Shown here in pieces: positions 29,093-33,419 of a stretch of 64,000 nucleotides of DNA. The stretch lies in assembly GCA_014239365.1 (NCBI GenBank), contig JAAZZB010000044.1:197320-261319 (forward strand). The letters are read 5' to 3'. The notes beneath the pieces are model-generated. The model saw only the letters and a list, made by a program, of their open reading frames with translations. It searched no databases and was not told the DNA's origin. This stretch comes from Verrucomicrobiia bacterium. Its GTDB lineage: Bacteria > Verrucomicrobiota > Verrucomicrobiia > Limisphaerales > UBA1100. A program made the position numbers and the translations under genes. Each line of letters starts with the position of its first letter. Positions within the stretch are counted from its first letter, which is position 1.

Positions 29093-29119
29093 AAGGAGCG
29101 CATTATGCGCTCCTTTTTT
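29093..29119. terminator. Intrinsic terminator hairpin
   Basis: aaggagcgca-tta-tgcgctcctt followed by T-run, just downstream of the 28635 gene. Confidence 0.75.
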
Positions 29120-31937
29120 AATTCAAAAACCGAAAGTCCAGGCTGGCATAAAGGCCGTGGAGGATTTGGGGCCAGGCTTTGACGGGGTCTTTTTCATGGG
29201 CGAGAAAGTTGAGGATGATTTTGCGCTCACGCTCGGTGGGGTTGCGGCCGAGGGTTTGTCGGTAAGCGTGATGGATGCGGGCGGGGTTGTCGGGGAGTTT
29301 TTCGGCGAGCAAACGCTGGGCGGCGGCGGCGGCTTGGGCGCGGACGAAAGGGCTGTTCATCAGGAAAAGCGCTTGGGTGGGGACGCTGCTGGTGGTGCGG
29401 CTGCCGACGACGAGGTTGGGGTCGGCGAAGTCGAACACGGCGAGAATTTCCAGCGGCGTGTTGCGGAACACAGGCGCGTAAAGGCTGCGGCGGGTGTCCT
29501 CAAATTGGTAGCCGTATTCGGTGGTTGTGCCGGGTTTGATGGTGTTCCCGCCGGACTTTGTATCAAGCCTGCCACTGACGGAAAGCACCGCGTCGCGGAT
29601 GGCTTCAGCTTGGAGGCGGCGGCGGTTTTGTCGCCAGTGCAGTTTGTTTTCAAAATCAATCGCAGATTGGGAATGCATCGTTGGCGCGGTGTGGCTCGAC
29701 AATTGGTAAACCCGCGAGAGGACAATTTCGCGAATGAGTTTTTTTACCGACCAACCTTCATCGACGAAGCGCACGGCAAGGTGATCCAGTAAGGCTTGAT
29801 GGGTCGGTAGCCGCCCGCTGTGGCCAAAGTTGTCGACGCTCGGCACGATGCCTTTTCCAAAAAGATGATGCCACACGCGGTTCACAAACACACGCGCGGT
29901 GAGTGGATGCTTGGCGCTGGCGAGCCAGTTGGCGAGCTCGACGCGGCCGCTGGCTTGGGCGGCGATTTTCGGCGCGGGGCCACGGTGCAGCACGCGAATA
30001 AAACTGCGCGGCGTTTTCGACCCCGCGTTGTGCGCATTGCCGCGAATGGCGATTGGGATGTCGCCGGGCTTCTCGCCTTCATCGGCAGCGATGATTTGCG
30101 GTTGCTTCACGGCGGACTTTTGCAGCGCCTTCAACTCCGCCTCCATTTTTTTCAACATCGCCTGCGCGGCCTTGCCTTCCAGCTTGGGCGCGGGCTTTGC
30201 AATGTCCGGTGCATCCTCTGATAAAAATTGAATCGCATCGGCAATCACGTGCGCAGTGGTACCCTTGGTGGAAATCACCACCGCCTCCCATTCGCCCACC
30301 AGAAAATCAAACGTGCCCAGCGAAATAAAATGACCGTCAATTGGTGGCCGTTTCGTTTGGTCGATGAATTTTGTCACCTCGCCATCCGCGTGGCGAATGA
30401 GCACCGGCACTTTGGCATCGCGATTGGTGCCGTGCGTGTACGCCACCCGCACCTCAAATTTTCCGTCGCCGGGAATTTTCACTTTGAACGTCACCGACTT
30501 GTCGCCCTTGCCCACCGCGCGGTCGTGAATGTAATTCGCGCCCACATAACCCTTGTTCGAGGTTGACTGCATCCAATCTCCTTTCAACTTCGCCTGCAAA
30601 TCGTCCACCACAATGCCCGGCAAACTCGCCACCGGCAGCGGCCCGTCGTTGCCGCCGAGCTGTTTCTTGAGCGCGGCGATTTCCTTTTGCTTCGCGCCAA
30701 TCGTTGCCTTCTGTTTTGCAGCCAATGCCGCCTGCTCCGGCGTCAACGGTAGGGGACGTTTATTCCAAGCGGATACATTGCTATGAATCACCACCTTCGT
30801 ACTTTTGAAAATGCCCGCCATGCCATAGTAATCCTCCGTGCGGATGGGATCGAACTTGTGGTCGTGACAGCGCGCGCAGCCGATGGTGAGCCCCATGAAC
30901 GCTTTGCCCATCGTGTCGAGTTGCTCGTCGACGATGTCCATTTCTAAAACCGTTTTATCCTGCAGCTCGTAATTCGTCGGGCCGAGCAACAGAAACGCCG
31001 TCGCCGTGAGCCGTTCACGCTGTTGCGCCAGCGTGCCGTCGCCGATGAGGTCGCCCGCGATTTGTTCGCGAATGAATTCTGTGAACGGCTTGTCCGCGTT
31101 AAATGCATCCACCACATAATCCCGATAGCGCCACGCGTCTTTCATTAGCAACGTGCGGCCGCCGCCGGTGGATTCTGAAAAGCGCACGACATCCAGCCAG
31201 TGCCGTCCCCAACGTTCGCCAAAGTGTGGACTGGCCAAAAGCGCATCGACCGTATTTGCGATTGCCGATTTACGATTGCTGATTGCCGCTTTCTCGAACG
31301 CCGCCATTTGCGCGGGCGTGGGCGGCAGGCCGATGAGGTCAAAATAAATACGCCGCAACAAAGTGAGGTCATCCGCATCACCCACCGGCCCGATGCCTTT
31401 CGTTTCCAACGCCGCGAGCACAAAACGGTCGATATCCGTTTGCGGCCAATCGGCACGCTTTACCTTCGGCGCGGGAAGTTTGCGCACCGGCTGGAAGGCC
31501 CAAAACTTCCGCGCCGCCGCGAGATCCAATTCCTTTTCCTCCGCCGTGGCCTTGCTGGAAGTGCGGGGATCAGGCGCGCCCATGGCCACCCACTTTTCGA
31601 AATCCGCAATTTGCGCTGCCGTCAGTTTTTTCTTCGGCGGCATTTTCAAATCCGCATCCGCATGCCGGATGGCTTGGATCAACAAACTCTTCCCCACGCG
31701 CCCCGGAATAATCGCCGCTCCGCTTTCGCCGCCCTTCTGCCAACCGCCCCGCCAATCCAGCCGAAGTTCACCCTTAGTTTTCTTCTCCGCACTGTGGCAC
31801 TTGTAACACTCACTCACGAGCACCGGCCGAATCTTTTTTTCAAAAAATTCAATACCGGCCAAATCAGCAGAATCCGCCGCACCCAAAGCTCCGCCCCAAA
31901 CCGTCAGCGAAACAATAATAGCGCGCGCGAAATTCAT
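29118..31937 (-). CDS. PSCyt1-DUF1549-DUF1553 protein with golvesin/xanthan-lyase-like CBD insertion
   Basis: CYKCHSAEKKTKGELRLDWRGGWQKGGESG; LLRRIYFDLIGLPPTP; GCARCHDHKFDPIRTEDYYGMAG; insert LPGIVVDDLQAKLKGDWMQST...ADAIQFL. Confidence 0.92.
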   Translation of the reverse strand: MNFARAIIVSLTVWGGALGAADSADLAGIEFFEKKIRPVLVSECYKCHSAEKKTKGELRLDWRGGWQKGGESGAAIIPGRVGKSLLIQAIRHADADLKMPPKKKLTAAQIADFEKWVAMGAPDPRTSSKATAEEKELDLAAARKFWAFQPVRKLPAPKVKRADWPQTDIDRFVLAALETKGIGPVGDADDLTLLRRIYFDLIGLPPTPAQMAAFEKAAISNRKSAIANTVDALLASPHFGERWGRHWLDVVRFSESTGGGRTLLMKDAWRYRDYVVDAFNADKPFTEFIREQIAGDLIGDGTLAQQRERLTATAFLLLGPTNYELQDKTVLEMDIVDEQLDTMGKAFMGLTIGCARCHDHKFDPIRTEDYYGMAGIFKSTKVVIHSNVSAWNKRPLPLTPEQAALAAKQKATIGAKQKEIAALKKQLGGNDGPLPVASLPGIVVDDLQAKLKGDWMQSTSNKGYVGANYIHDRAVGKGDKSVTFKVKIPGDGKFEVRVAYTHGTNRDAKVPVLIRHADGEVTKFIDQTKRPPIDGHFISLGTFDFLVGEWEAVVISTKGTTAHVIADAIQFLSEDAPDIAKPAPKLEGKAAQAMLKKMEAELKALQKSAVKQPQIIAADEGEKPGDIPIAIRGNAHNAGSKTPRSFIRVLHRGPAPKIAAQASGRVELANWLASAKHPLTARVFVNRVWHHLFGKGIVPSVDNFGHSGRLPTHQALLDHLAVRFVDEGWSVKKLIREIVLSRVYQLSSHTAPTMHSQSAIDFENKLHWRQNRRRLQAEAIRDAVLSVSGRLDTKSGGNTIKPGTTTEYGYQFEDTRRSLYAPVFRNTPLEILAVFDFADPNLVVGSRTTSSVPTQALFLMNSPFVRAQAAAAAQRLLAEKLPDNPARIHHAYRQTLGRNPTERERKIILNFLAHEKDPVKAWPQILHGLYASLDFRFLN

Positions 31938-32143: not shown

Positions 32144-33331
32144 ATGCTGTTTCACCGATTGATTGTTTGTGCCGTATTCGTTGCGGGGATGGGTTTGTCT
32201 GCCGCACCAAAAGTCACTGCGCCGCCGCCCAAAGTACGGGCCGCGTTGAAGCTCGATGCGTTTTACCAAAAGCACGTGGACGTGGGCGGGTTCTCGATTG
32301 TGTCCTCCAAAAATGTTTCGGACTACGCGCTGTTGGAGGCGGCGTATCTCATCCGGCAAATGGTCGGCCCGCGCGATGATATTTTGCGGGCGATGGCCAA
32401 AAACAAAACGCGCTTTGGCATCATGGCCTACAACGAAATGACCACGCAGATTCCTGAGCATCGCACGTTGCAGCCGCGCTTGTATTGGAACAAACGCGCG
32501 CGCGGCCTCGGCGCATCGGCCGCGCGACCGGTGGTGACTTGCGGCGAGGAAAATTTGCTGGGTTACCAAGGCGACCCCTACTCGAAGGAAAATATTTTGA
32601 TTCACGAACTGGCGCACGCGATTCACGAAATGGCGCTGAACGATTTGGATCGCACCTTCGATCCACGACTGAAAGCCGCTTACAACGCCGCGATGAAAGG
32701 CGGTTTGTGGAAAGGCAAATACGCCGCGCGCAACCGAATGGAATACTGGGCCGAAGGCGTGCAGTCGTGGTTCGACACCAATCGCGAAAATGATTTTGAA
32801 CACAACCATGTGAACACCCGCGCGGAGTTGAAACAATATGACAAGCCATTGGCGACACTCATCAAGGAAGTTTTCGGTGACGGCAAGTGGCGCTACATGC
32901 GGCCGGAAAACCGCAAGCCAGCATCCGCGCATCTCGCGGATTACAACCCGAAAAAGTCACCCACCTTCGCCTGGCCCGCGCGCGAGACGGCGTGGTTCGA
33001 TCGCTTTAAACAAGGCAAAGAAACAATGGCCCCCGCCAACGCGGTGGAGGTGGAATTGCTCTCCGCCAATTCCAGCAACTGGCGCTCCCCGCGCACGCCG
33101 GACCGCACGCGCATCTACATCGCTAATGCCAGCCGCCGTTCGGTGCGATTGGAGTGGGTTGATTTCGATGGCAACACCAAAGCCTACGGCGTAGAAATCC
33201 GCCCCACCGATCACAAAACCGAATACACCTACGCCGGCCACGTTTGGCGCATCGTGGATGATAAAACCAACCGCGTCCTCCACCACTTCGTCGCCCCCAA
33301 AGCCCCGGGCAAAGTAGTGATCACTGATTGA
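32144..33331 (+). CDS. HExxH metalloprotease-like secreted protein with C-terminal VHL-beta-like domain
   Basis: NILIHELAHAIHE...MEYWAEGVQSWFDTN; C-terminus RTRIYIANASRRSVRLEWVDFDGNTKAYGVEIRPTDHKTEYTYAGHVWRIVDDKTNRVLHHF resembles pVHL beta domain. Confidence 0.8.
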   Translation: MLFHRLIVCAVFVAGMGLSAAPKVTAPPPKVRAALKLDAFYQKHVDVGGFSIVSSKNVSDYALLEAAYLIRQMVGPRDDILRAMAKNKTRFGIMAYNEMTTQIPEHRTLQPRLYWNKRARGLGASAARPVVTCGEENLLGYQGDPYSKENILIHELAHAIHEMALNDLDRTFDPRLKAAYNAAMKGGLWKGKYAARNRMEYWAEGVQSWFDTNRENDFEHNHVNTRAELKQYDKPLATLIKEVFGDGKWRYMRPENRKPASAHLADYNPKKSPTFAWPARETAWFDRFKQGKETMAPANAVEVELLSANSSNWRSPRTPDRTRIYIANASRRSVRLEWVDFDGNTKAYGVEIRPTDHKTEYTYAGHVWRIVDDKTNRVLHHFVAPKAPGKVVITD

Positions 33332-33344
33332 ACAGGTTTAATTG

Positions 33345-33409
33345 AACACAGATATTCACGATATTCAGGATAATAATATTAAATCCTGTTCATCGTGAAT
33401 ATCTGTGTT
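33345..33409. repeat. Intergenic inverted repeat, ATATTCAGGAT family, perfect 18-bp arms
   Basis: aacacagatattcacgat...atcgtgaatatctgtgtt. Confidence 0.8.
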
Positions 33410-33419
33410 AAATAAAAAA

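Follow-up and report, generated by a model that had tools for sequence, protein, structure and literature searches.

The locus analyzed here raises the question of what a bacterial protein with an HExxH metalloprotease motif does with a C-terminal domain resembling the one through which human pVHL reads hydroxyproline. The gene lies at 32144..33331 on the + strand of the window, i.e., the whole 64,000-nucleotide stretch of Verrucomicrobiota DNA analyzed, and encodes 395 residues. Its product comprises a putative signal-peptide-like N-terminus as judged by inspection (residues 1-21, MLFHRLIVCAVFVAGMGLSAA; 32144..32206, +), a PPEP-like zinc endopeptidase domain (residues 22-290; 32207..33013, +), and a VHL beta domain (Pfam match at residues 323-379; 33110..33280, +). 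Based on the N-terminus, the protein is probably exported. The open reading frame and its fusion of an HExxH motif to a VHL-like C-terminus, as reported in a preliminary description of this DNA, are real: the same architecture recurs in orthologues of independent assemblies with 49-73% identity, and the fusion is therefore not an assembly artefact. NCBIfam matched nothing in the window protein. Directly 3' of the gene, at 33337-33417, is an inverted repeat with 35-nt arms (86% complementary) and an 11-nt loop, possibly a terminator or a small repeat element. The source genome probably encodes a secreted protein-cutting enzyme that carries the hydroxyproline-reading domain of pVHL. Specifically, we consider it likely that the protein is a secreted proline-directed PPEP-like endopeptidase with a VHL reader of trans-4-hydroxyproline that tethers it to hydroxyproline-rich extracellular proteins.

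The preliminary description had placed the VHL-like C-terminus at 33026-33331 and had made this assignment depend on a PF01847 match and a pVHL-like beta-sandwich in an AlphaFold model; both were found. In a Pfam profile search, PF01847 matched the window protein significantly (30.9 bits, E = 2.8e-7, cut-off 21) and within the interval given. Using phmmer against the PDB, we also retrieved pVHL chains at an E value of ~0.03, a weak match for a comparison that starts from one sequence. The VHL beta-sandwich was present in an AlphaFold2 model for which six orthologues were used (mean pLDDT 80.8), and all PDB matches listed by Foldseek were pVHL (best E = 3e-7, probability 1.00), including 4ajy, which contains a HIF peptide, and 4awj, which contains capped hydroxyproline. 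The model superimposed on pVHL with an rmsd of ~1.6-3.0 A over ~90 columns. While the beta-sandwich is common to both proteins, the window protein differs from pVHL in that it has no alpha domain or elongin box and ends right after the beta domain at residue 395; lacking the elongin C box and alpha domain, it was rejected as a pVHL-type E3 ligase subunit. Here, the VHL domain is instead joined to a protease whose N-terminus resembles a signal peptide, and no ubiquitin system is implied.

The hydroxyproline pocket of pVHL consists of W88, Y98, H110, S111, H115, and W117, of which S111 and H115 hold the hydroxyl and Y98 holds the backbone carbonyl (PMC9528729). In the alignment, W88, Y98, S111, H115, and W117 correspond to W338 (codon at 33155), Y348 (33185), T362 (33227), H366 (33239), and W368 (33245), all on the + strand, so that the window protein has the same pocket residues with T for S111. 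When 31 bacterial VHL domains were compared over 61 columns, variability was lowest in eight, namely N78, W88, W117, Y98, H115, S111 (mostly T), G114, and G93. All five pocket columns are within these eight, for which the chance expectation is ~9e-6 in a set that was gathered in its majority with the PF01847 profile and is thereby biased toward conserved columns; the domains from loci L058-L062 were gathered by whole-protein homology and a homologous protease or a nearby epimerase gene led us to those from L138-L155. In the latter set, the C-terminal VHL copies of proteases all kept W88, S/T111, and H115, while the Y98 position was Y, F, R, or M, and W117 was replaced by F in L152 and L153. 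The VHL domains of S9 peptidases at epimerase loci kept the whole pocket in seven of seven cases, with S111 as T, and H115 was replaced by A in the copies on the L138 and L144 sulfatases. Divergent VHL-like domains at the N-terminus of other members of the protease family (see below) retained S/T111 and H115 and had lost Y98 and W117.

These patterns can be read in a second way, in which the VHL-like domain would be a secreted beta-sandwich of a generic kind that binds proline-rich or other peptides, or a glycan, without selectivity for the 4-hydroxyl, and the enzyme would be a general protease of proline-rich proteins; the hydroxyproline link would then be indirect, because proline-rich proteins also contain hydroxyproline. 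The inconstant Y98 in protease-fused copies and the loss of H115 in sulfatase-fused copies agree with this explanation and indicate that hydroxyproline binding is not required of every copy; the lack of Y98 and W117 in the N-terminal domains likewise agrees with it. Moreover, folding may account for the conservation of W88, N78, G93, and G114. However, the residues that would read the hydroxyl, S/T111 together with H115, are present in every C-terminal protease copy examined and in every S9-borne copy at epimerase loci, and several VHL genes are located within operons specific to 4-hydroxyproline rather than proline. We therefore regard a generic binder as unlikely, and a VHL reader of trans-4-hydroxyproline remains the reading that we prefer.

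For the protease domain, Pfam returned matches to M90, ATLF, and M91, all of which were below threshold, and Peptidase M90 (PF06167; 17 bits versus a cut-off of 26.2) and ATLF (PF07737; 16.1 versus 27.4 bits) were rejected as formal families. Using a structure model of residues 22-290 (pLDDT 81.5, pTM 0.83), we found that the best PDB matches in Foldseek were PPEP-3 (E = 5e-4) and PPEP-2, with E values ranging to 1e-2, a probability of ~1.0, and TM scores of 0.4-0.6, while other M34-type folds ranked after these. Similarly, PPEPs made up 10 of the 11 hits in a profile search of PDB sequences, none of which was significant alone (best E = 0.045). H154, E155, H158, Y193, E200, and E204 were invariant in 22/22 relatives. 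The HELAH motif, which provides the zinc ligands H154 and H158 and the catalytic E155, was correctly recognized in the preliminary description, as was EYWAEGVQ, but is located at 32603..32617 (+), one base from the position given there (32602-32616). E200 (32741..32743, +) aligns with Glu185 of PPEP-1, which we take to be the zinc ligand instead of Glu184 based on our reading of the alignment and established knowledge. Y193 (32720..32722, +) aligns with the oxyanion residue Tyr178 of PPEP-1 (residue roles from PMC12828418). We conclude that the domain is PPEP-like without being a certified member of a family. The Pro-Pro endopeptidases PPEP-1/2/3 are its nearest solved folds, with the HExxH motif, the oxyanion Tyr, and the third zinc-ligand Glu in alignment, but the similarity is distant (~17% identity), the domain has ~270 residues versus ~200, and VHL or cyclophilin domains are present in addition. 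We infer that cleavage by the window protease would be Pro/Hyp-directed.

In a PF01847 scan of the phylum sample, 21 of 388 genomes had VHL domains, mostly as modules of secreted-looking peptidases and sulfatases. The commonest carrier was a DPPIV/S9 peptidase of ~800 residues with the domain inserted near the N-terminus (here, VHL-S9); sulfatases, one LRR protein, and the domain alone accounted for the others. Sulfatases with a C-terminal VHL domain were present in L138 (4149-7735, +), L144 (2908-4749, +), L025, and L027. Within the protease family, the VHL domain is C-terminal in the clade of the window protein, and other members have a divergent VHL-like domain at the N-terminus (profile-profile comparison with hhalign, probability 97.7, E = 1.7e-12). 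Proline-related fusions recur in this family, namely with a cyclophilin prolyl isomerase and, in another clade, with a VHL-like domain at the opposite terminus. The cyclophilin-type prolyl isomerase is C-terminal to the protease domain in L036 and L141 (15274-17037, -), i.e., in two genomes of different lineages. In L155 (4457-6688, +), protease, VHL, and SASA (sialate O-acetylesterase-like) domains are combined in one polypeptide, the gene for which sits just 3' of a Xaa-Pro aminopeptidase gene. A distant family member in L044 (G050:C1) is fused to a GH127 beta-L-arabinofuranosidase; GH127 enzymes are reported, in the available part of PMC4454575, to act on the hydroxyproline-linked arabinose of extensins. 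The second VHL domain in the window's genome (L002, G000:C72:126904-127059; ORF 1432-2547, -) forms the C-terminus of a probably secreted LRR protein and has Ala in place of the pocket His. Two small stand-alone VHL proteins are encoded on plasmids of Nostoc (L107) and Jannaschia (L108), i.e., in Cyanobacteria and Alphaproteobacteria, and no hydroxyproline genes are annotated near them. Candidate plasmid relatives of VHL-S9 were rejected: among the best matches listed, those from Rhizobium and Sinorhizobium begin past the VHL part of the query, and the VHL domain therefore appears to be lacking there.

The genomic context of VHL and protease genes links them to the catabolism of 4-hydroxyproline. 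The known trans-4-hydroxyproline pathway, as described in the available part of PMC4113996, involves 4HypE, DAAO, DHDPS, and KGSA dehydrogenase. In L066, all four enzyme families are clustered with VHL-S9: a tight cluster encodes a D-hydroxyproline dehydrogenase (DAO family), an AraC regulator, the epimerase, a DHDPS-type deaminase, an aldehyde dehydrogenase, and a VHL-S9 peptidase. The PF05544 member of this locus scored 421.8 bits as a 4-hydroxyproline epimerase versus 183.8 as a proline racemase, with the epimerases of L066 and L068 both under the equivalog cut-off of 450 bits; by sequence inspection, the PF05544 members of these genomes retain both catalytic cysteines. L067 repeats most parts of L066, including VHL-S9, and L065 has genes for the deaminase, a Xaa-Pro aminopeptidase, the epimerase, VHL-S9, an oligopeptide symporter, and DAO. 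Subsets of the pathway together with protease and/or VHL genes were found in L138, L139, L140, L141, L144, and L148. In L138, genes that overlap or nearly do so encode a protease with VHL, two sulfatases with VHL, the deaminase, the epimerase, a DUF885 protein, and a dehydrogenase, giving three VHL proteins in one operon. L139, with a member of the window's own protease family, has protease, deaminase, DUF885, epimerase, and dehydrogenase genes; L140 has protease, Xaa-Pro aminopeptidase, epimerase, and dehydrogenase genes; L141 has genes for the protease-cyclophilin fusion, a POT transporter, the epimerase, sulfatases, a dehydrogenase, and VHL-S9; and L144 has genes for a sulfatase with VHL, a protease with an N-terminal VHL-like domain, the deaminase, the epimerase, and a dehydrogenase. 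The VHL domains of the second L138 sulfatase and the L144 protease were missed by Pfam and detected only with our in-house profile. We note that the DUF885 gene adjoins the epimerase gene in both L138 (9587-11359) and L139 (2866-4767); its product is possibly another peptidase of the hydroxyproline pathway. These operons resemble those in the available part of PMC4113996 in that the same four enzyme families form the same clusters, and differ from the operons described there by the addition of VHL peptidases, VHL sulfatases, and the PPEP-like protease.

The association also held in counts across genomes. In the phylum sample, the epimerase was present in 14/15 genomes with a close protease homologue versus 26/373 others (Fisher test, p = 2e-14), and at the genus level, the furthest to which these tests account for phylogeny, in 7/8 (p = 8e-7). 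In the order sample, the protease and epimerase genes were at most 10 kb apart in 9 of the 45 genomes with both, compared to 0.28 expected based on a uniform 5-Mb genome (Poisson, 2e-11). With the close protease homologues set aside, VHL genes were located within 10 kb of an epimerase gene in 4/21 genomes (0.09 expected). The operon clusters stand independently of the Fisher tests. P4H-like PF13640 proteins were likewise found above background in protease-bearing genomes (6/15, p = 0.001), as might be expected if the VHL domain read one of the bacterium's own proteins after prolyl hydroxylation and the protease then degraded that protein, in a counterpart of PHD-VHL oxygen sensing. However, at the phylum level this association is weaker than that of the epimerase, so that the link to hydroxyproline catabolism is the stronger one; the signal-peptide-like N-terminus speaks for an exported protein; and the sole PF13640 match in the window's genome is below the cut-off (26.4 versus 27 bits) and adjoins galE, methyltransferase, and glycosyltransferase-like genes. 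An oxygen-sensing role is therefore highly improbable in our view, and the data support a link of the probably secreted protease and its putative VHL reader with 4-hydroxyproline catabolism.

The window gene itself is in a different setting. Its neighbors are PSD1/DUF1501, SDR, and PfkB genes, and hydroxyproline genes are absent from the neighborhood; the PSD1/DUF1501 neighbors are partly common to its close orthologues. The PSD1/DUF1549 protein encoded upstream of the protease gene (29118-31937, -) has an internal Golvesin_C domain. Adjacency of the window gene to a hydroxyproline operon was rejected, because the protease gene is on contig C17, while the genes for the epimerase and a D-amino-acid dehydrogenase are side by side on contig C50. 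Among the three DHDPS-family genes in this 94% complete draft genome, there is no clear orthologue of the operon-type deaminase. This context would suit a scenario in which the window copy has taken on a different function among its PSD1/DUF1501 neighbors while its relatives still act on hydroxyproline-rich proteins. We consider such drift improbable, since the window protein has lost none of its catalytic residues and none of the five in the pocket, and the genome keeps the adjacent epimerase and dehydrogenase genes. Based on the intact pocket and catalytic residues, we transferred the function by family, and the window copy would act like its operon-borne relatives, for which the support is more direct.

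The proposal in the preliminary description that a VHL-guided protease acts on hydroxyproline-rich extracellular substrates is well supported, though by inference, by the pocket conservation, the PPEP folds, and the operon-borne relatives. In the mechanism that we propose, the VHL pocket would tether the enzyme to hydroxyproline-rich extracellular proteins, for which algal or plant hydroxyproline-rich glycoproteins and animal collagen are candidates. The catalytic domain would cut the tethered proteins and thereby start their digestion, and other peptidases (DPPIV/S9 and Xaa-Pro aminopeptidase), some of them VHL-tagged, would trim the products for import. Imported hydroxyproline would then be catabolized by the epimerase, D-hydroxyproline dehydrogenase, deaminase, and semialdehyde dehydrogenase. 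The sulfatases and GH127 are hints toward algal or plant hydroxyproline-rich glycoproteins as substrates, and the VHL sulfatases in hydroxyproline operons hint that these substrates are sulfated. In the available part of PMC4454575, Latescibacteria are predicted to digest algal hydroxyproline-rich glycoproteins, with GH127 implicated; unlike in that prediction, we propose a VHL reader and a dedicated protease.

VHL domains in bacteria are not new in themselves; they are known to Pfam and from one paper, which in its available part reports that a hypothetical protein of Litorilituus sediminis matches the VHL domain and describes the domain as linked with tumor suppressor activity (PMC9002001). 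That protein is an earlier instance of a bacterial VHL match, while the protease, the hydroxyproline operons, and the pocket analysis come from the present work. In a search of open-access journal papers, we found only this paper and no published account of a link between bacterial VHL domains and hydroxyproline catabolism. The presence of VHL protease and peptidase genes in operons with which relatives consume hydroxyproline suggests a digestive use of the reader domain in bacteria. Tentatively, and based on VHL domains sampled in one phylum, bacterial VHL domains might serve generally to read hydroxyproline and direct secreted peptidases and sulfatases to hydroxyproline-rich glycoproteins, together making up a system dedicated to their utilization. 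Animal pVHL might then be a domesticated version of this older digestive module and not have originated in animals, which we see as a possibility rather than a favored conclusion. Bacterial VHL domains with the pVHL pocket in hydroxyproline-degrading operons represent a testable bacterial counterpart of the reader and point to a candidate path for the bacterial digestion of hydroxyproline-rich proteins. They are also a candidate source of Pro/Hyp-directed proteases and of small, naturally occurring modules that bind hydroxyproline.
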